From the IMG/VR virus record IMGVR_UViG_3300044638_007592, positions 1 to 35,596 of that record: DNA of 35,596 bases; one strand, given 5' to 3'. The stretch is from a virus. The notes beneath the pieces were generated by a model. The model was not told where the DNA came from. It was given only the letters and a program-made list of their open reading frames with translations, and did no database searches. Positions 5,229 through 35,596 of the stretch are shown here, piece after piece. The position numbers were made by a program, and so were the translations under genes. The first letter of the stretch is position 1. The number at the start of each line of letters is the position of its first letter.

Positions 5229-5271
5229 AAAATTTCAAATTTCAAATTTCCAGTTTCCAATTTTCAGTTCT
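5224..5271. repeat. Junction repeat family F (AAATTTC tandem)
   Basis: AAATTTCAAATTTCAAATTT is followed by CCAGTTTCCAATTTTCAG. It is AT-rich in a GC-rich genome. It fills the junction between the sigma factor gene and the small membrane protein and overlaps the last codons of the sigma gene. Confidence 0.8.
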
Positions 5272-5845
5272 CCGCGCCCCGCGCGCCCATCCACCCCCGC
5301 AGCTTCCGCAGCGCCCCCGACGCGATCTGCTGCACCCGCGTGTAGGTGATCCCAAACTCCGGCGGCAGATGCCGCAGCGGCACCCCATCCCAAAACGCCC
5401 GACGCAGAATCTGCATCTCCCGCTCATCCAGGCGCGAAAGCAGCGACTGCATCTTTACGTGCGCATCCTCCTCCACCCACTCCGACTCCACCGGCACCGT
5501 GAATACCGCGTGCATCGTGGTTTCGCTGCCATCGTCACCGAACATCGGCGCATCCAGCCGCATCTCACCCACCCACCAAAACTTCTCATTCGAAGGCAGC
5601 TTCACGATCTGGCCCATCCGCATCACCCATCGGTGCATGCGTGTCTTGATCGCGCGGCCCGCATACGAAATAAACTTCACCCCGCGTTCCGGATCATAGC
5701 TCTTCGCCGCCAGCACCAGTGCCACGCGTCCCTCTTGCAGCAGGTCCGGCAGCCCTGATTCACCCACCACCTTCAGCCAGTCATTCGCGCACGACCTCAA
5801 AAAGCCCTCATGCTCCGCCAGCATCGCATTGAGATCCGGGTTCAT
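5264..5845 (-). CDS. Phage-encoded sigma-70 family RNA polymerase sigma factor
   Basis: The protein has 193 residues. Region 2 is seen at about 31-76: LPDLLQEGRVALVLAAKSYD, then RGVKFISYAGRAIKTRMHRW, the core-binding and -10-reading helices. Region 4 is at about 133-185: SLLSRLDEREMQILRRAFWD, then ITYTRVQQIASGALRKLRG, the -35-reading helix-turn-helix. Length and the lack of regions 1 and 3 fit small phage or ECF-like sigma factors. It should redirect host RNA polymerase, perhaps to late genes. The start at 5845 overlaps the upstream gene by 4 bp (ATGA). The late genes carry a shared TTTGACACC element that it could read; that link is inference. Confidence 0.88.
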   Translation of the reverse strand: MNPDLNAMLAEHEGFLRSCANDWLKVVGESGLPDLLQEGRVALVLAAKSYDPERGVKFISYAGRAIKTRMHRWVMRMGQIVKLPSNEKFWWVGEMRLDAPMFGDDGSETTMHAVFTVPVESEWVEEDAHVKMQSLLSRLDEREMQILRRAFWDGVPLRHLPPEFGITYTRVQQIASGALRKLRGWMGARGAEN

Positions 5846-7787: not shown

Positions 7788-7835
7788 CCGCGCCACAGCC
7801 AAGTAAAATCAAGCCCTCCAGCCTCACGGCGCATT

Positions 7836-22551: not shown

Positions 22552-22560
22552 GGTGTCAAA
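22552..22560 (-). promoter_or_regulatory. TTTGACACC element overlapping a stop codon
   Basis: The TGA stop of the 195-residue glycosyltransferase (22556-22558) is the TGA of this element. No start codon lies 11 nt downstream (ATC is there), so it may act on the transcript or be a relic. Confidence 0.5.
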
Positions 22561-23143
22561 CCTCCGGCGCGAGCGTGGTGCGGGCGTCGTGGCGGTAGGT
22601 GTGCAGGATGGCATCGATGTGATGCGCGCGCGTGACATGCTGCCGCGCCTGCGCCACCCATGCGGCGTCTTCGCCGTAGTTGGTATCAAGGAACTGGCAG
22701 TGGCGGATTTTCGTGCGCCGCCAGGCGCAGACGTGCCAGGGGCCACGCGTGATGCGCTGGTCATCCGGGCCGTCGAGGATGAGCTTGTCATCTTTGGCCC
22801 CGAGCTGGAAATGCACGGTGAAGGGCTTGCGATTGTAGATGGCAGCCTGGTCGAAGGTGATGACATCGGCCTCCGGGTGCTCGATGATGGCCTCAATCAG
22901 ACGCGTGACGTAGTCCTCGCTGACATCATCGTCATCGTCCACGAAGGCGATGAAGTCGCCGCGGGCGGAATTGAGCAGCGCCTGGCGTTTCATGCCGATG
23001 CTGCGGGCTCGGTTGTCGTAGAGCACCAGGTGCTCGATGTGGCTGAATCCGGGCTGGTGGATGAGCTTTTCGTGAAGGGCGCGGCCTTGTTCGACGCGGT
23101 TCCAGCAGGCGGGTGTGAGGATGGAAAGGAGAGGAGGTTTCAT
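22556..23143 (-). CDS. Family 2 glycosyltransferase (GT-A fold)
   Basis: The protein has 195 residues. It starts with a GT2-type strand (PLLSILTPACWNRVEQGRAL) and carries GDFIAFVDDDDDVSEDYVTR (about 66-85), with the DxD metal/nucleotide-sugar site. NYGEDAAWVAQARQHVT near residue 158 resembles the later acidic ED motif. There are no membrane segments, so it acts in the cytoplasm on a soluble acceptor. It overlaps the larger glycosyltransferase by 4 bp (ATGA, 23140-23143). Virion protein glycosylation is the favoured role given its place in the head operon; DNA base modification is an alternative. Confidence 0.85.
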   Translation of the reverse strand: MKPPLLSILTPACWNRVEQGRALHEKLIHQPGFSHIEHLVLYDNRARSIGMKRQALLNSARGDFIAFVDDDDDVSEDYVTRLIEAIIEHPEADVITFDQAAIYNRKPFTVHFQLGAKDDKLILDGPDDQRITRGPWHVCAWRRTKIRHCQFLDTNYGEDAAWVAQARQHVTRAHHIDAILHTYRHDARTTLAPEV

Positions 23144-24825
23144 GCAGTGCGGGGTTTGATGCCGGTGAGTTCTTCGAAGATGGCAGCGCCTTCCTGGTAG
23201 CGTTCAGGGCTGTTGTGGATGGCATAGACTTCGTCCCATCCTTTGCCCTCGTTGAAAAAGGGATGGTGGTGCTCGATGACGATGTGATTGGCGTCGATGA
23301 CGATGCCGTCTTTGTAGGCAGACCAGGAGTGGAAATCGTCGCTGAAGACGGACTTGAAGCGGGGATGGAGAAAGAATCCCTGCTGCTGGTAGCGGGCGCG
23401 GTTGATGACGGCAATGCAGAGGAGGTCATCGGTGCGGTGCCCGTCGCTGACTTTGAGTGCAGCGGGATCGGCATATTTACCGGCGAAGGCTTGCTCGATC
23501 ATCACATCCCAGCCCATCGGCGGCTCAAAGTCGTCGTTGATCTGGATGAGGATCTCTCCACACGAGGCGGCGGCGGCGAGATTCCACGCGCCGACGCTGG
23601 CACCATTGCCGGTCTGGATGACGTGGCGATAGACGGCGAGCGGCATGCTTTGCTCGTCATTGAAGTCGAAGGCGAAGAGGTGCTCGACGCGGTCGGGATG
23701 CGCAGCGCGATTCAACCACTGGCGGCGGGCATCGGCGGCGATCTTTGGACGGCCGCGCGTGGCATGGAGGAGGCTGATGACGGGATGGCGCTGGGCCTTC
23801 AAGTGATTGATTTCGCGCACATCAGCTTCCTTGAAGCGACCATTGGCACGAAGGGCCATGCCGTGGAGCTGCACGCCCAGGTAGCCGTAGTATTTGCCGC
23901 GGCGGTTCCAGATGTATTCCGGCGGATCGCTGAGTCCGCCCATGGCCTCGGCATACGCGAGGGCGGCGCGGGGATCGCCGAGGCGCAGCTTGCAGTTCAC
24001 CATCTCGCCAAAGGCCTCGCGGCGATAGGGCGCGGCATTCAGGGCATGCAAAAGGTATTGCTCCTGTGCTCGCACGTTGGTGGAGACCTGGGCGATGTTG
24101 ATGAGCAGCTCGTATCCTTCATCGGGGCCGAGATCGGGGTGCTTCAGTGCCTGCTGGGCAATCTTGACGCCTTCCTCAATGCGGCCGACGAAGCGCATGG
24201 ACTGCCACAGGTGGAAAAGGTGCGAGATAGTGCGCTCGCTCTCGGGGATGCTTTCGAGGATGCGCAGATTTCGCTCGTTGTTTGGCGTGCGGTCTTTATG
24301 CGTGGCGTGATGCCAAACGGGCGATTCCTGAACAATGACGCGAGGCGCTTCTATGTTCACCTTGAAGCTCTCGTGAATGGGTGAGATCCAAGTGCCAGTA
24401 TCGCGGCGCAAGATGCGCTCACGCAGCACGCAGAGCTGATCCTCGGGCACGACGTAGGGCAGGGTGACGACATCCGGCCGCTCGGTGGCGATGCGTTTGC
24501 GCAGGGCCTGCCATTCCTCCAGCGTGCCGCCATAGACATCATCGGTGTCCGCCCAGGCGATGTAATCGCCATCGGCGAGCTTAAAGGCGAGATTGCGAGC
24601 GGCGGCGAAGTCGTCCACATGGGGCCACTCGGCATGCGCGGGCTTGTTGTGATACTCGGCGGTGATACAGCCACGGCTGCGGGCGATGTCGAGGCTGGCA
24701 TCGGGCGATTGGTTGCCGATGGCTCGCACGACGATGATTTGATCGAAGAGCGGCGAGAAAGAGTCGAGGAAGCGGGGCATCCAGTGCTCCACATTTCCGG
24801 CGATGATGGCGAGGCTGATTTTCAT
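23140..24825 (-). CDS. Large bifunctional glycosyltransferase with two GT-A domains and a helical repeat
   Basis: The protein has 561 residues. The first GT2 domain (1 to about 190) starts MKISLAIIAGNVEHWMPRFL and has GDYIAWADTDDVYGG with DxD. A helical region follows (about 210-330, LFHLWQSMRFVGRIEEGVKI, then ALKHPDLGPDEGYELLINIA), TPR-like. The second GT-like domain (about 345-561) has ISLLHATRGRPKIAADARRQ and ILIQINDDFEPPMGWD with a DD site. The last half has His-rich VIEHHHPFFNEGKGWDEVYA. Overlaps both neighbours by 4 bp. Two catalytic domains suggest addition of a disaccharide or of two different sugars. Acceptor unknown. Confidence 0.88.
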   Translation of the reverse strand: MKISLAIIAGNVEHWMPRFLDSFSPLFDQIIVVRAIGNQSPDASLDIARSRGCITAEYHNKPAHAEWPHVDDFAAARNLAFKLADGDYIAWADTDDVYGGTLEEWQALRKRIATERPDVVTLPYVVPEDQLCVLRERILRRDTGTWISPIHESFKVNIEAPRVIVQESPVWHHATHKDRTPNNERNLRILESIPESERTISHLFHLWQSMRFVGRIEEGVKIAQQALKHPDLGPDEGYELLINIAQVSTNVRAQEQYLLHALNAAPYRREAFGEMVNCKLRLGDPRAALAYAEAMGGLSDPPEYIWNRRGKYYGYLGVQLHGMALRANGRFKEADVREINHLKAQRHPVISLLHATRGRPKIAADARRQWLNRAAHPDRVEHLFAFDFNDEQSMPLAVYRHVIQTGNGASVGAWNLAAAASCGEILIQINDDFEPPMGWDVMIEQAFAGKYADPAALKVSDGHRTDDLLCIAVINRARYQQQGFFLHPRFKSVFSDDFHSWSAYKDGIVIDANHIVIEHHHPFFNEGKGWDEVYAIHNSPERYQEGAAIFEELTGIKPRTA

Positions 24826-29473: not shown

Positions 29474-30457
29474 CTAGTTGCCGAGCTGGGTGTTGTCCTT
29501 CACTCGCGTGAGCCTGTTCCATGCTTCTCGCACCACTGCTGGAATTTGGCCGTTTCCAAGGGCTTCAAGTCGGTCCATCCCACGGGCCACCCCATCAACC
29601 ATTCTTCCCATTCCGGGTTTATCATCTTCCCCATGTTCTGCGGGATCTTCTCGCCACCATTCGAGATCGCCACCGCCGCATTCAGAGGATAGCTGTTCCG
29701 ATTGAACTGCTCCGCCCCCGCTCGGTTCTTGGCATCGTTCACCGTTGGAGTCGGCCACATCCTTCGGCCTTGCCTGAAGGATACCGGAAACTTCTCGGTA
29801 GTCGTATTCGTCGTCTTGGCTTGGTCCTGGGCAGTCGCATTCATGGTAGTGGGTTTCGCATTCGGGGCAATAGGGTTCATTGCAGCATTCACATTCGAGC
29901 ATGTCGGCAACGTCCATCACTCGTCTCCAGCGCCGCACTCCAGCGATCCAGACTCGTCTTCTGACGTGGGGCGCTCCGACTTCAGTTCCAGATATAGTTT
30001 CCCATCGCACATCATACCCCTCCGAGGCCAAGTCCGAGAGGACTCGCCCGAAGTATCCGTGACTTCCAAAGAGTCCGACCACGTTTTCCAGGAGCACATA
30101 CCGAGGCTCCGCACGTCGAATGATTTCGATGGTAGCGGGCCACTGATTCTTAGCTCCCGTTCCGGCAGTGCCTTGGCCTGCGTGCATGTAGTTTGCGAGG
30201 GAAAATTCTTGGCACGGAAAACCCGCCGATACAACGTCAACCACTCCTTTGTAGCAGTCAGCATATCCGTCCCGAATAAAGTCTCGGACATCGCCACAAT
30301 AGACGGGTGCATCGTCGAGAATCCCATCTGCAATGCGCTGGGCGAGCAGACGGCACGCATAGGCGTTCCACTCCACATATCCGAGTGTTGTCCATCCGAG
30401 AAGCTTGCTGCCAAGAAGGCCGCCACCTCCACCAGAGAATAGGGAGAGTTCACGCAT
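29474..30457 (-). CDS. C5 cytosine DNA methyltransferase with Cys-rich insert
   Basis: The protein has 327 residues. Motif I is LFSGGGGGLLGSKLLG, motif IV GFPCQEFS with catalytic Cys82, motif VI ENV at 124-126, motif VIII RRRVWIAG, and motif X GNGQIP near 306. Between VIII and the target-recognition region lies a run of seven cysteines (189-209: CECCNEPYCPEC, then CDC), probably zinc-binding and not usual in Dcm-type enzymes. No cognate nuclease is present, so it probably protects phage DNA from host restriction. GC is lower than neighbours; it looks like an inserted accessory gene between terminase and joiner. Starts 8 bp inside the previous gene. Confidence 0.92.
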   Translation of the reverse strand: MRELSLFSGGGGGLLGSKLLGWTTLGYVEWNAYACRLLAQRIADGILDDAPVYCGDVRDFIRDGYADCYKGVVDVVSAGFPCQEFSLANYMHAGQGTAGTGAKNQWPATIEIIRRAEPRYVLLENVVGLFGSHGYFGRVLSDLASEGYDVRWETISGTEVGAPHVRRRVWIAGVRRWRRVMDVADMLECECCNEPYCPECETHYHECDCPGPSQDDEYDYREVSGILQARPKDVADSNGERCQEPSGGGAVQSEQLSSECGGGDLEWWREDPAEHGEDDKPGMGRMVDGVARGMDRLEALGNGQIPAVVREAWNRLTRVKDNTQLGN

Positions 30458-30789: not shown

Positions 30790-32613
30790 TCAAAGCATCC
30801 CGCCAGCACGGAGGAGCTGGTAGTCAATGCAGGCGTATTTGGAGCAATCGCCGAAGTGGTCGTGGGGGACGCGTTGCCATTCGCCGTCGGCGTCGCGTTT
30901 TTGGCCGGTGTGTCCGAGTTTGATCTCGGGATCGGCATCGACGGGGAGATGGAATCCGCCATCGATGCGCTTCATCATGCGGTTGGCGTAAAGCATGTTT
31001 TTCACTTCGCGGTCGTTGAAGACGAGCAGTGACATACCTGGTCGTGTGGCGACGCGGGTTTCGTGGAGCTGTCCATGCTTGGCGTCGGAGCCTTTGACGG
31101 GGATAAAGAAGCCTTTGGAGGCGGCGCACACGTCGAGTTGATCGTCTTGCTGCCAGCCGGTGTCGAGGTAGCCGCGGACGGGATAGATTTTTTCGCCGGT
31201 GCCTTCGACGATGATGTGTCGGGCTTTCAGGAAGTCGGTGGCGAGGAGATCCTTGGATGAGACGACGGTGCCCCAGTCGCAGACCCAAACACCGCCGTCG
31301 TGGGCGAGGGCGGCGAGTTCCCAGTGCGTGGTGGCTTCACCGGGATCGGCATTGAGGAGTAGTCGCAGCGGCTTAAAGGGCAGGGTGCCGCGGCGATACA
31401 AAGGGCGGCCGTTTTTGCCGTCGGCGATGGCTTTGACGACATCGTCCATTCTGAGGTTGACGTTGAACTCAGTCCACGGGCGGGCGAGGCGGCTGTTGTA
31501 GTAGTCCTGAAGGCCGAACATGTCCTTGAGTGAATCGAGGAAGTCCCATGCCATGGTGCCGAAGCTCTTGGTGGGCGAGTAGAACGAAGGCAGGATGAAG
31601 GTGCGGCGGTTTTTGGCGGCGAGGATGTTGTGGCGTTTTTCGGCGCAACCTTCGACCATCGCCTGTTTGTGCAGCTCGGTGATCTGGCAGCCGTTGTGCG
31701 GGCAGATGTAGCGCACGGATTCACGCACGCGGGCCTCGTCCCATTGCCCGGAGGCCTCACGGGCGTCTTTGTCCCAGGTGAGGGATTTGTAGTCGCTGGG
31801 GAGGGTGAGGCCGAGGTGGGTGTTGTATTCCTCGACATCTTCGGGCCGGCCGATGAAGTCGAGGTAGAACCAGCCGCGGCAGTGCGGACACTCGGTGTAG
31901 AAATGGGTTTGGTCTCCGGCGAGGATGTATTTCCAGAATGGATGCGTGGGGCTATTCGGCGTGCTGGAGTAGTAGTGAAACTCCAGAGCGCCAAAGCCGT
32001 CGGTGCGTTTGGCGATGAGGTGGAAAGGATGCGCCTCGGGGGCCTGGTCGCTTTCGCTTTGGATGAGCTTTGAGGCTTCATCGCAAAGGGTGATGCCATA
32101 CGAGCCACCAGAGAGCGCGCCGGGGGAATTGCCGCCGACGAGGTTGACCATGCCGCCAGCCATGTCCATGGACATGGAGCGGTAACGGTCGGAGTTGGCG
32201 GGCTTGCAGGCGGCGAGGATGGGGTTCTCGTCGATGAGGACCTGCATGCGCTTTTCGCTGAGCTCGGTCTTGGTCCAGTCGCGTGAGCTGCCGATCATGA
32301 GGATCGGCATGGGGGCATTGACGAGTCGATACGAAGCTCCGAGCGTGAGCATGGTGGTCTTAGCGATCTGCACCCCGGCGGAGACGCCGCATTCATTGAT
32401 GCCCGCTTCGGGGTTGAAGCATTCCAAGATGGGCCGCTGAAACGGACGCGAAGCCGTGCGGAACGGCCCGGCGGAGTTCGGTGCCATTTTGCGCGGGAGG
32501 ATAATGTTTTCCTCCAGCCAGGGCACGACGGCTTTTCGCCGCTGGGTGCGGAACATGCCGAGCACCTCGCTTTGCACCAGCGCGGCGCGGCGTTGCTGCG
32601 GGGTCGGGTTCAT
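30790..32613 (-). CDS. Terminase large subunit, lambda gpA family
   Basis: The 607-residue protein has the ATPase part with a Walker A-like segment at about 77-89 (VSAGVQIAKTTML) and ITLCDEAS with Asp178-Glu179 (Walker B), followed by YYSSTPNSP (motif III). A zinc-binding-like pair CPHC (242-245) and CPHNGC follows, typical of gpA relatives. The C-terminal half (LRLLLNADPGEATTHWELAA onward) is the RNase H-like nuclease. The enzyme cuts at cos and pumps DNA. Overlaps TerS by 4 bp (ATGA, 32610-32613). The gpA family implies cos-type packaging. Confidence 0.95.
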   Translation of the reverse strand: MNPTPQQRRAALVQSEVLGMFRTQRRKAVVPWLEENIILPRKMAPNSAGPFRTASRPFQRPILECFNPEAGINECGVSAGVQIAKTTMLTLGASYRLVNAPMPILMIGSSRDWTKTELSEKRMQVLIDENPILAACKPANSDRYRSMSMDMAGGMVNLVGGNSPGALSGGSYGITLCDEASKLIQSESDQAPEAHPFHLIAKRTDGFGALEFHYYSSTPNSPTHPFWKYILAGDQTHFYTECPHCRGWFYLDFIGRPEDVEEYNTHLGLTLPSDYKSLTWDKDAREASGQWDEARVRESVRYICPHNGCQITELHKQAMVEGCAEKRHNILAAKNRRTFILPSFYSPTKSFGTMAWDFLDSLKDMFGLQDYYNSRLARPWTEFNVNLRMDDVVKAIADGKNGRPLYRRGTLPFKPLRLLLNADPGEATTHWELAALAHDGGVWVCDWGTVVSSKDLLATDFLKARHIIVEGTGEKIYPVRGYLDTGWQQDDQLDVCAASKGFFIPVKGSDAKHGQLHETRVATRPGMSLLVFNDREVKNMLYANRMMKRIDGGFHLPVDADPEIKLGHTGQKRDADGEWQRVPHDHFGDCSKYACIDYQLLRAGGML

Positions 32614-33263
32614 ACCGTGAGCTCCGCGAGCACGTTTTCGAGCGCGGGGTTGAACTCCTCTTCACGCCACTGCGAGATCGCCCGCATGGCATGCTGGGGG
32701 TTGTCGGGGTTCGCCCGCTGGGCGATGCGGCCTTCAAAAGAGGCGAAGAGCGAGACGAATTTCATCAGCGCGGCTTTGGCGTCCTGCCAGGCGGACATGG
32801 GCTGAAGTCGGCCGCTTTCCAGCTCGGCCTGGACGCGACGCTGGCGGGCGAGGTGGTAGGACTTCAGCGAATCGGCCGCGATTTTCACAAAGCCGATGGC
32901 TGCCATCGGATCGCCACGATCCAAAGCCACCTCCCGCTGCGCATTGGCAGCAACCAGCCCGGCCCACGCCTGACACTCGGCATACTCTTCGGGCGTCCAC
33001 TGGTCCTGCGGCTTCTCCATAGCAGGCGGAGCCACATGCACCAGCCGATCTCCGGGGGGCGTTTGCCTGCTCATTACAGCAACCAAAGCACTTTTTTGAA
33101 CTTCATCGGGATTTGCACTTTCCGCCCCTTTTATTGCCATCGTCGCTTCTAATGCAATAAAATTTGGATGGCGATTTTTAGCATGCAACTGCGCAGTTCG
33201 CTTGGCTACCCCCTCAGTAGCCATATAAAGTTTAATCAATCCTTTTTTCAGGTGCGCACCCAC
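32610..33263 (-). CDS. Terminase small subunit, Nu1-like
   Basis: The preferred start is the GTG at 33263 (217 residues). It lies 12 nt after a TTTGACACA element and keeps the whole HTH; the ATG at 33224 (204 residues) is the alternative. The frame stays open to 33338, but that stretch is made of GCGCAAA repeats and is probably non-coding. Residues near the N-terminus (LKKGLIKLYMATEGVAKRTA, QLHAKNRHPNF) form a winged-HTH like lambda Nu1. It binds the cos region and brings in TerL. The repeats just upstream are the likely binding sites. Ends in a 4-bp overlap with TerL. Confidence 0.8.
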   Translation of the reverse strand: MGAHLKKGLIKLYMATEGVAKRTAQLHAKNRHPNFIALEATMAIKGAESANPDEVQKSALVAVMSRQTPPGDRLVHVAPPAMEKPQDQWTPEEYAECQAWAGLVAANAQREVALDRGDPMAAIGFVKIAADSLKSYHLARQRRVQAELESGRLQPMSAWQDAKAALMKFVSLFASFEGRIAQRANPDNPQHAMRAISQWREEEFNPALENVLAELTV

Positions 33264-33275
33264 ATGTGCGCTTTC

Positions 33276-33284
33276 TGTGTCAAA
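33276..33284 (-). promoter_or_regulatory. Start-associated element, variant TTTGACACA, 12 nt before the TerS GTG
   Basis: Minus-strand TTTGACACA is separated from the GTG at 33263 by 12 nt. It differs from the exact element at the last base and supports this start over the ATG at 33224. Confidence 0.55.
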
Positions 33285-33346
33285 GCGCAACAATTCCGCG
33301 CAAAGCGCAAACCTTGCGCCAAAACCATGCGCAAACACGTTTGCGC
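33285..33346. repeat. GCGCAAA repeat cluster upstream of TerS
   Basis: GCGCAA(A) occurs at 33285, 33298, 33305 and 33329, with inverted copies (TTGCGC) at 33314 and 33341. TGCGCAAA-CACG-TTTGCGCA at 33328-33347 is a palindrome. Its place directly before TerS recalls the R-sites of lambda cosB. Confidence 0.75.
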
Positions 33347-33739
33347 ACCCGCTCGCTCAAAAGCGTAGAGACGTTAAACCCGAGTGGCAGGGGCGGGCTG
33401 GAAAAAGATTCCTTACCCACCCCACCCATGCCGCCCCATGCCTCCACAATGACGGCACCGCCGTCATTGTGGAACGCTAGATCGTAAAACGTGGAACATT
33501 TAGAATGACGGGATGACTACTGGTTTTCTCTCTTCCAAATAAAATACCATCATAAAAGCAAAGCGCCTTGTTTGCACACCAATCACCGCCTTGCAGGCGG
33601 CACGCCGTCACAAACACGTTCCACGCTCGCATTATTGGACGTTCCACAATGACGGCATGACGCGTCACAAGCAGCAAGCGCCAGTCATCCAAGCCGATTT
33701 TCTGAATCGCTCGCGTCGTGGCGAGCTCAGATCATCGCA
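33347..33739. other. Non-coding segment with dyads: candidate cos site or replication origin
   Basis: A 14-bp perfect inverted repeat with 3-nt loop lies at 33443-33473 (left arm TCCACAATGACGGC). The 17-mer CGTTCCACAATGACGGC at 33640-33656 is an exact inverted copy of 33460-33476. GTGGAAC/GTTCCAC occurs four times and AATGACGG/CCGTCATT four times. An AT-rich stretch (CCAAATAAAATACCATCATA) lies at 33535-33554, and CCGCC-TTGCA-GGCGG nearby. Between helicase and TerS, this is the expected place for cos; origin iterons are the alternative. Confidence 0.7.
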
Positions 33740-35353
33740 TCACGCCGCAGGTGGCGCGATCATCCAACCCTTCCATGCACTCGTGTCCTTTTTGGTCACT
33801 CGAATGTCGCGGAAATGCTCATCCGCAAACAGCCGCCCGAGAAGGGTGCTGCACTTGTTATGCTGGAAGAGCTTCTTTGCCATAGTCGCCACGTTGCAGT
33901 GGCAGCCACCTTCGCCTGTCAAAAGCATCTGGAGCGTCTCCGCCTTGCCATGCCACGCACGGATGCGCACATGCTGCCCACCCACCCAGATCGGCGGCAC
34001 TTCCTTGTCGCCCACTAGATCCCACAGCTTCATCTCTTGCGGCCCATCGCCCAGCATCTCCTCGCCGCTGCTCTCCACACCACGAAACACCGCCGAGTCG
34101 ATGAGACTCATCAGCTGCGCCGCCGGCGTATCATCAAAAAGCTCATCCTTGATGCACGGCGCATGGTATTCGCGGAAACCGAACCGCGTCGCGTTCTTCC
34201 CGTCCTCATAAACCTTCAGCTCCTCGGGAATCTGCCACTCGTTCAGCAGCCAGTGCAGATAGCACGGCAGCTCACGCTCCATCACCTCGCGGAACTCCTT
34301 TTGGTTCTCGATGCTGTTCGTCGTGATGATCGGCAGCGGACGCGCAGCACAGTGGAAAACCAGCACCTTGTCGCCAAAATCTGCCGTGATGATCGGCAGC
34401 GAGCGCAGTTTGTCCGGATCATCATTCACCGAGATCGTCAGCCGCCAGAACGGCGACACACTACAAGGCTCCGTCCGCATCAAACGCATGCGCTGCGACG
34501 GATTCGCCACCACCTGCTTGATCTTCTCAGCCAGGCTCGTGCGATCCACTGTGCGCTGCGACGGCGTCGGGATCTCGCTCAGCATCAAGTGCTCCGCCGC
34601 AAACACATCCCCGTTAAACTCATCGCTCTCAAAGAGAAACTTCGCCGGGTCACAGTATCGCCCATAGCCACCCAGCAGCGGCGTGATCACCTGCTCCTGC
34701 AGACGATTCTTCCCGCAACCACGCGGCCCCGCCAATATCATCGCATGCCCTTGACGCCAATGCCCAGGCTCACCGCGCCGGATGCTATCCGCCGCCACCT
34801 GGCACCACGAGTGAAACCACGGCGTTTGATCAATCCCACCCATCTCCCGACGATCCAGCTGGCCCTCAATCAGCGCCCGCAGATGGCTCCAGTCGCCCTC
34901 ACGCGGCTCCACCAGCTTCGGAGCCTGCTTCACCAGCACTCGCTCACCGCTGTCCAGCGTGTAAATCTTCGACATATAGCCCGGCAGCGACGGCAGCACC
35001 TCATCTAGGCTCCGATGCTTCCGCACGTGCAGCATCACCCGCTTCGCCTCGCTCAGCATCTCATTCTCCCTCGCCTTGATCGCGATCATCCGCCCCGGCA
35101 GACTCCGCATCGCATCGATCGTCGCCTGTTGAGGCCAGCGTTGCCAGCGACCATCCGCGCTCTGCATCATGAAGTTGTCACCATCCCCGCTGCGCCAATA
35201 CATCCGCATCTCCTCCGCCACCGCCGCCTCATCAAACACCTTTGGAGCCTCCGCATCACCAGCCACAAACGACGCCGGCGCGTCATCGGCAGGTTTGCTC
35301 ACCTTGCCGCGACGCGGATTCTTTGGCTCCTTCGATGTCTGTTTTTTTGCCAC
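33740..35353 (-). CDS. D5/SF3-like replicative helicase (DUF5906-type)
   Basis: The protein has 537 residues. The central ATPase has Walker A ILAGPRGCGKNRLQ (Gly-x-x-Gly-Cys-Gly-Lys-Asn, about 209-216) and Walker B LMLSEI (256-261), then a basic stretch (SQRMRLMRTEPCSVSPFWRL) and NDDPDKLRSLP with a sensor-like Asn. These fit the viral D5-like/SF3 family often paired with phage primases. The N-terminal part is basic and then helical (DEAAVAEEMRMYWRSGDGDN). It unwinds DNA at the phage origin. It follows the primase by 55 bp on the same strand. Confidence 0.83.
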   Translation of the reverse strand: MAKKQTSKEPKNPRRGKVSKPADDAPASFVAGDAEAPKVFDEAAVAEEMRMYWRSGDGDNFMMQSADGRWQRWPQQATIDAMRSLPGRMIAIKARENEMLSEAKRVMLHVRKHRSLDEVLPSLPGYMSKIYTLDSGERVLVKQAPKLVEPREGDWSHLRALIEGQLDRREMGGIDQTPWFHSWCQVAADSIRRGEPGHWRQGHAMILAGPRGCGKNRLQEQVITPLLGGYGRYCDPAKFLFESDEFNGDVFAAEHLMLSEIPTPSQRTVDRTSLAEKIKQVVANPSQRMRLMRTEPCSVSPFWRLTISVNDDPDKLRSLPIITADFGDKVLVFHCAARPLPIITTNSIENQKEFREVMERELPCYLHWLLNEWQIPEELKVYEDGKNATRFGFREYHAPCIKDELFDDTPAAQLMSLIDSAVFRGVESSGEEMLGDGPQEMKLWDLVGDKEVPPIWVGGQHVRIRAWHGKAETLQMLLTGEGGCHCNVATMAKKLFQHNKCSTLLGRLFADEHFRDIRVTKKDTSAWKGWMIAPPAA

Positions 35354-35408: not shown

Positions 35409-35596
35409 TCAAAAATCCCAGCACGTGAACGCCTCGCGCACATCCGCGCTCGTCGTCACGTCCTCTCTGCACTTCGCCAGATCGTTCAGATCCTTCACCG
35501 GCGAGCCATCCCGCATCACCAGACCCGGCGTTAGGATGCGCACCGCCGCGCCATCGATCTCGCGCCTGCCCCAGGCCGCGATGTCCTCCGGCTCAT
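35409..35596 (-). CDS. DnaG-like primase, 3' end (continues from base 1)
   Basis: The codons at 35459-35412 (VTTSADVREAFTCWDF) and the TGA at 35409-35411 finish the primase frame that leaves the window at base 1. Bases 35460-35596 repeat the left end; at 35586 the codon GAG (Glu) replaces GAC (Asp369). Confidence 0.88.
   Translation of the reverse strand, partial: EPEDIAAWGRREIDGAAVRILTPGLVMRDGSPVKDLNDLAKCREDVTTSADVREAFTCWDF
35460..35596. repeat. Right copy of the 137-bp terminal direct repeat
   Basis: It matches 1-137 with one mismatch (C at 35586 against G at 127). The circular unit is therefore 35,459 bp. The mismatch means the two ends came from different molecules or contain an assembly or read error. 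Confidence 0.95.

Follow-up and report, generated by a model that had tools for sequence, protein, structure and literature searches.

The intergenic region at 33.26-33.74 kb of the virus record IMGVR_UViG_3300044638_007592 is very likely a compact ori-cos cassette of a temperate tailed phage of the lambda type. As judged by comparison with related sequences, it appears to consist of two neighbouring modules, a cos site and a probable replication origin, each seemingly exchanged independently among relatives. The window, by which we mean the whole 35,596-nucleotide stretch of DNA analysed, carries a 137-bp terminal direct overlap (1-137 versus 35460-35596, one mismatch) and is a circular genome of ~35,459 bp opened inside the CHC2 primase gene. 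An earlier note on this DNA had taken the segment 33264-33739 for a cos site or an origin, and its GTGGAAC/AATGACGG dyads for cosN or an origin; a cos site is present and an origin is probable, but the dyads are not cosN, and the cut site at 33369-33380, the AAGGAATCTTTTT box at 33402-33414 and the mirror symmetry of the repeat array were all absent from that note. The parts are of known kinds in a new variant, with cos and ori compactly adjoined. Read on the minus strand, the order would be helicase gene, origin, cosQ-position box, cosN, cosB, TerS and TerL:

33740..35353, minus strand: helicase-type replication protein, type A, putative initiator (DUF5906-like, P-loop GPRGCGKN, alignment A1)
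33443..33656, no strand: probable replication origin, a mirror-symmetric TGACGG/GTGGAAC array (from spacing and co-segregation with the helicase)
33604..33656, no strand: helicase-proximal half of the array, inverted relative to the other half
33518..33557 (approximate), no strand: A+T-rich core, 72% A+T, candidate unwinding element
33460..33512, no strand: cos-proximal half of the array, with CCGTCA, two GTTCCAC and TGACGG read on the minus strand
33402..33414, minus strand: cosQ-position element AAGGAATCTTTTT, starting 34 nt before the minus-strand cut
33369..33380, minus strand: cosN, 12-nt cohesive end 5'-GGTTTAACGTCT-3', from recurrent contig tips
33380/33381 on the minus strand and 33368/33369 on the plus strand: staggered cut at cosN, presumably leaving 5' overhangs
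33285..33346, no strand: cosB-like cluster of six GCGCAA boxes, putative TerS-binding sites (from motif counts and clade comparison)
32610..33263, minus strand: TerS, 217 aa, start set from relatives and probably GTG at 33263, with a predicted N-terminal helix-turn-helix-like segment
30790..32613, minus strand: TerL of the lambda gpA family (GpA_ATPase, E 7.6e-35; GpA_nuclease, E 1.3e-8)

The cos site was located from the ends of contigs. A TerL scan of IMG/VR gave 34 loci, most of them 91-99% identical, which were aligned to the window. Aligned from the TerL side, many contigs end at one and the same base, 33380, and from the opposite side others end at 33369. Seventy contig tips were examined, and 51 of them map to the window: 11 at 33380 and 5 at 33369, so that 16 of the 51 fall on two coordinates, as expected of fixed genome ends at one site, and every one of the remaining 35 has a coordinate of its own. 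When divergent relatives are included, 22 of the 70 tips are exact, 14 starting at the equivalent of 33380 and eight ending at the equivalent of 33369; the 14 exact tips on the TerS side come from 14 different metagenomes, one each. One tip, that of G047, was missed by the systematic tip-count pattern and was added from separate inspection. Five further tips near cos are displaced by 10-127 bp from the cut.

Four contigs (34,200, 35,488, 37,363 and 36,681 bp, near the circular length of the window) carry the 12-mer GGTTTAACGTCT at both tips, and contigs reading through the site hold it in a single copy. In the 37,363-bp contig, G046, the right tip is GGTTTAATTGTCT and the left tip starts GTTTAATTGTCT; one extra base shifts the sequence, yet the two tips still share 12 nt. 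Because 5' overhangs are filled in during end repair, phages with 5' cos ends have a terminal sequence in common, and the shortest terminal repeats exceed 100 bp (PMC5557969). The terminal repeat seen here, 12 bp, is too short for T7-like packaging with direct terminal repeats (> 100 bp) and lies within the range of a short shared overhang (20 nt or less). The simplest reading makes 33369-33380 the cosN of a cos site whose 5' overhangs are 12 nt long, and from these sequence ends we regard cos as near-certain; the 5' polarity we infer from the fill-in logic of library preparation, because the terminal sequence is common to both ends after end repair. At the left tip of G018 (L296, 1-46), a cosQ box together with another cos variant, GGTTGAATGTCT, is joined to the left end, and the right tip of this contig ends exactly at the usual 12-mer; the left tip may stem from a read that spans a mixed junction.

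On the right-end side of the cut, the box AAGGAATCTTTT stands at a nearly fixed distance from cosN and in our analysis seems to occupy the place that cosQ, the signal for ending packaging, has in lambda (PMC4669245). When 2.9 million viral contigs were scanned for the box and cosN with spacers of N20-26 allowed, 17 stretches came back, all of them AAGGAATCTTTT-N22-cosN and all from members of the present phage group, and a looser cosQ-cosN pattern returned 27, a few of which, more divergent, have a spacing off by 1-3 nt. The pattern matches once in the window and not at all in shuffles; in alignment A2 the columns of the box are invariant, and box and spacing are conserved down to a TerL identity of < 30%. 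A scan of viral contigs for CCACAATGACGGCA was uninformative among the matches listed.

On the other side of the cut, the six GCGCAA boxes (33285+, 33298+, 33305+, 33314-, 33329+ and 33341-) lie 35-96 nt from it and, given the probable GTG start at 33263, upstream of the TerS gene, as the earlier note had placed them. Its suggestion that they are TerS-binding sites is plausible in so far as they appear to behave as cosB sites would: at comparable distances from the cut, each TerS/terminase clade has a motif of its own. Relatives whose TerS is about 23-27% identical have TGTCGC (GTCGC) boxes in place of GCGCAA, and those whose TerS is 16-17% identical have GGAAG boxes, the substitutes standing for example near 31, 50, 72 and 91-111 nt from the cut. 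The motif switch thus appears tied to the TerS/terminase clade, TerL changing together with TerS. Lambda-like phages conserve cosQ and cosN and have their TerS specificity in cosB (PMC4669245), and a conserved cosQ-cosN with a switching cosB, as it appears from these comparisons, is a lambda-like pattern.

The large terminase is of the gpA type, with both PF05876 and PF20454 matched. Neither Pfam nor PHROGs gave a match for TerS; searches of PDB sequences with both protein profiles yielded nothing meaningful, and a PDB fold search with the TerS model (mean pLDDT 76.5) returned unrelated helical proteins alone, at E > 0.4. Many relatives have an insert of roughly 1.2-2.2 kb with extra genes between TerS and TerL (window 32604-32606), for example L009:775-2653 and L027:777-2987, and also L008, L010, L015, L018, L019, L022, L031 and L034; judged by eye it holds a ParB-nuclease-like ORF (MTEKHANLELWKSAPLAEINHPHPKNPRVI...) and variable cargo, and an Rfam search of the insert gave no match. 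An ORF resembling a DNA cytosine methyltransferase (29474-30457, by eye) has TerL on one side and head genes on the other, and this stretch is missing or substituted in relatives such as L012 and L013.

The resemblance to the lambda cos group (lambda, 21, N15) extends to the gpA-family TerL, the cos site directly before TerS, the 12-nt stagger with 5' extensions (here presumed), an element on the right-end side of cosN, and repeated boxes between cosN and TerS, cosN and cosQ being kept and cosB following the terminase clade. The cosQ-position element, however, is a 12-13-nt AAGGAATCTTTTT here and 7 bp in lambdoid cosQ, the box motifs differ, and no known family resembles the present TerS detectably. 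By eye, GGTTTAACGTCT agrees with the lambda overhang, which we take to be GGGCGGCGACCT, at only some 4 of 12 positions. Among isolated phages, the nearest relative by TerL (30.6% identity) is Akkermansia phage Moulinsart (L271, ON453896.1), which around 318-505 has AAGGAATCTCTTT and then CGGAAC boxes before TerS, and this suggests a related but diverged cos. A GGTTTA..GTCT cosN match was not found in Moulinsart; the paper searched for it names the phage in a table only and has no 'cos site' text, and a literature search for cos sites of Verrucomicrobia or Akkermansia phages found none among the papers covered.

Between cosQ and the helicase gene lies the array that we consider, by strong inference, to be the replication origin. 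The repeats described in the earlier note were all recovered: the 14-bp perfect inverted repeat with a 3-nt loop (33443-33473), the 17-mer at 33640-33656 with its exact inverse at 33460-33476, four GTGGAAC (33469+, 33491+, 33618-, 33641-), four AATGACGG (33448+, 33461-, 33504+, 33648+, with no other copy in the window) and the A+T-rich patch, whose richest 40-mer, 72% A+T, is near 33518-33557. Followed along the minus strand from the stop of the helicase gene, the first half of the array reads CCGTCA, GTGGAAC, GTGGAAC, GTGACGG, and after the A+T-rich core the second reads CCGTCA, GTTCCAC, GTTCCAC, TGACGG, so that the halves face each other; the 17 bp at their outer edges are identical in the window, and the last TGACGG forms the 14-bp hairpin with one additional inverted CCGTCA (33450-33455). 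In the window and in relatives with these boxes, the CCGTCA/TGACG spacings are 44-45, 99-105 and 43-45 nt (once 54), and the 45 - ~100 - 45 arrangement is kept down to 63% helicase identity. In the most divergent relatives with helicase A (G044, G045, G050), GTGGAAC is missing and TGACG-type boxes alone are left. Short sites at fixed spacing, an A+T-rich element and an adjoining putative initiator gene are what is expected of an iteron-type origin.

Against first-order (dinucleotide-frequency) shuffles of 33264-33739, with statistics that are post hoc, AATGACGG occurs 4 times versus a shuffled mean of 0.02 and GTGGAAC 4 times versus 0.06 (0 of 2000 shuffles as good in either case); GCGCAA, the weakest enrichment of the three box families, occurs 6 times versus 1.26 (6 of 2000 as good), and the longest hairpin arm is 14 versus a maximum of 9. 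The argument is carried by comparative evidence rather than by these shuffle statistics. The cumulative GC skew of the window has its minimum at 7827, at the integrase, and its maximum at 32,860, near ori-cos, a sign opposite to the bacterial rule; it turns at these points though the minus strand encodes most genes of either arm.

The helicase A gene ends directly upstream of the array, and a separate CHC2 primase is encoded just upstream of the helicase. The protein matches DUF5906 below the curated cut-off and a PHROGs DNA primase at E 8e-4, and domain and PHROGs searches found no primase domain in it; its structure model (mean pLDDT 36.9) was discarded. In all 27 loci scorable for both, the helicase type agrees with the dominant iteron motif, types A, B, C and D going with TGACGG, ACCCTC, GGTCAC and TCCCAC, respectively, as for a site motif co-inherited with its initiator in iteron-type origins. 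Much of the spacing of type-B boxes is kept at 51% helicase identity, and type-D iterons are weakly enriched (89 of 300 shuffles as good). The agreement of motif and helicase and the kept spacing give these elements the appearance of initiator-iteron pairs. Two relatives provide, as we read their sequences, a natural experiment in which the array follows the helicase and not the terminase. In G014 the TerL is 95% and the TerS 86% identical to those of the window and cosQ-cosN is nearly identical, but the helicase, of type B, is unrelated and there are nine ACCCTC boxes, TGACGG and GTGGAAC both being missing; G046, with a TerL about 27% identical, has a helicase 80% identical and the full TGACGG/GTGGAAC array. 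The CHC2 primase is inherited together with the helicase and could, on the same comparisons, be the binder of the array instead.

Elements 3' of helicase-type genes have precedents. Helicase-primases of the pRN1 type depend on an element that lies right behind the 3' end of their own gene, and for phage BIP-1 an origin directly 3' of the helicase-type replication gene was proposed by its authors (PMC4234260). The present array is like those of the archaeal plasmid pRN1 and of BIP-1 in having an inverted-symmetry element immediately 3' of its own helicase-type gene, but it consists of conserved iterons at fixed spacing and not of one long stem-loop, and helicase A is DUF5906-like, with the CHC2 primase on a separate protein. 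The ori of phage P4 has short iterons for the alpha protein, a helicase-type initiator, around an A+T-rich region, an organisation shared by the array described here; no second locus like crr of P4 was seen in our phage.

Other readings of the contig ends and of the dyads need to be weighed. That the recurrent ends arose as an artefact of assembly or mark the att boundaries of a prophage, and are not virion ends, seems to us almost negligible in probability. They do come from metagenome assemblies and the phage does encode an integrase, but breaks at graph branches would overlap by about k-1 bases and not by 12 in contigs from 14 metagenomes, the four contigs above have both tips at the same site, many contigs read through it into phage genes and not host DNA, and the integrase is about 10 kb away on the circular map. 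We give hardly more credence to the dyads being part of cos, as cosN or as a TerS array, with no origin here; palindromic as they are and within about 280 bp of the cut, they lie outside 33369-33380, which falls between the two repeat families, and they follow the helicase gene, since G014 keeps terminase and cosQ-cosN with ACCCTC boxes in their stead and the relative with the 27% identical TerL retains them.

The hairpin might instead be the transcription terminator of the replication operon. It would be very stable as RNA (-32.4 kcal/mol, z -5.35) and stands at the operon 3' end, but on both strands it lacks a following T tract, a search for terminator-like sites did not pick it out, and its second arm is broken in some relatives where the TGACG iteron is invariant. 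We therefore think this improbable as its main role; the hairpin could act as a terminator in a secondary one. Somewhat less improbable, though still unlikely, is that the GTGGAAC/TGACGG array is an operator or a centromere, bound by a repressor or by the ParB-like protein encoded at 1275-2684. Symmetric intergenic boxes are operator-like and the phage does encode that protein; however, the ParB-like proteins show the same degree of divergence (28-30%) whether or not a phage has TGACGG iterons, which argues that ParB is not the determinant of the array, the four array types are each found 3' of a different P-loop replication gene, and the long-range 45-100-45 symmetry about the A+T-rich core is conserved. 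An origin remains our preferred reading of the array.

The host of this uncultured phage is likely to be a member of the Verrucomicrobia, because a Verrucomicrobiaceae metagenome assembly holds a relative and the closest isolate by TerL, Moulinsart, is an Akkermansia phage. In this assembly, the sole cellular record found with a relative of the phage, the gene for a 48%-identical helicase precedes TGACGG boxes, AAGGAATCTTTTT, a sequence resembling cosN and a pair of genes for TerS and TerL. Elsewhere in the window, a phage sigma-70-like factor (Sigma70_r2 and r4 matches) is encoded at 5264-5845 in the early region, and two ORFs that look by eye like glycosyltransferases lie at 22556-24825 within the structural gene block; an Rfam scan of the window gave no match.

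Taken as an ori-cos cassette, the region might work as follows. After injection, the sticky ends would anneal and be sealed, and the helicase and the CHC2 primase would then assemble on the inverted boxes and open the A+T-rich core. Late in infection, TerS would bind the GCGCAA boxes and the gpA-type TerL would nick cosN, the cut with its 12-nt stagger yielding 5' overhangs GGTTTAACGTCT; packaging would begin at the TerS/TerL end, move towards the genes for portal and capsid, and stop at the next cosQ-cosN. The scheme draws on what can be read in the sequence, namely exact ends with a 12-bp overlap, a near-rigid cosQ-cosN spacing, cosB motifs that appear to go by clade and iterons that appear to go by helicase; the protein binding and origin activity in it are putative.

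For an uncultured phage group, metagenome contigs alone thus supply the exact ends of the chromosome, its packaging signals and a candidate origin, and the cosQ-cosN signature is usable for orienting and completing such genomes. We may also ask if the adjacency of ori and cos is itself functional, the origin at the far right end of the virion chromosome serving as a circularization checkpoint and the specificities of replication and packaging being exchanged as two plug-in modules at a constant cosQ-cosN core. We hold this to be doubtful; if true, replication would start only once the cohesive ends have annealed and been sealed. Irrespective of this, the natural swaps among these phages separate terminase-cosB from helicase-origin specificity and make both directly testable.
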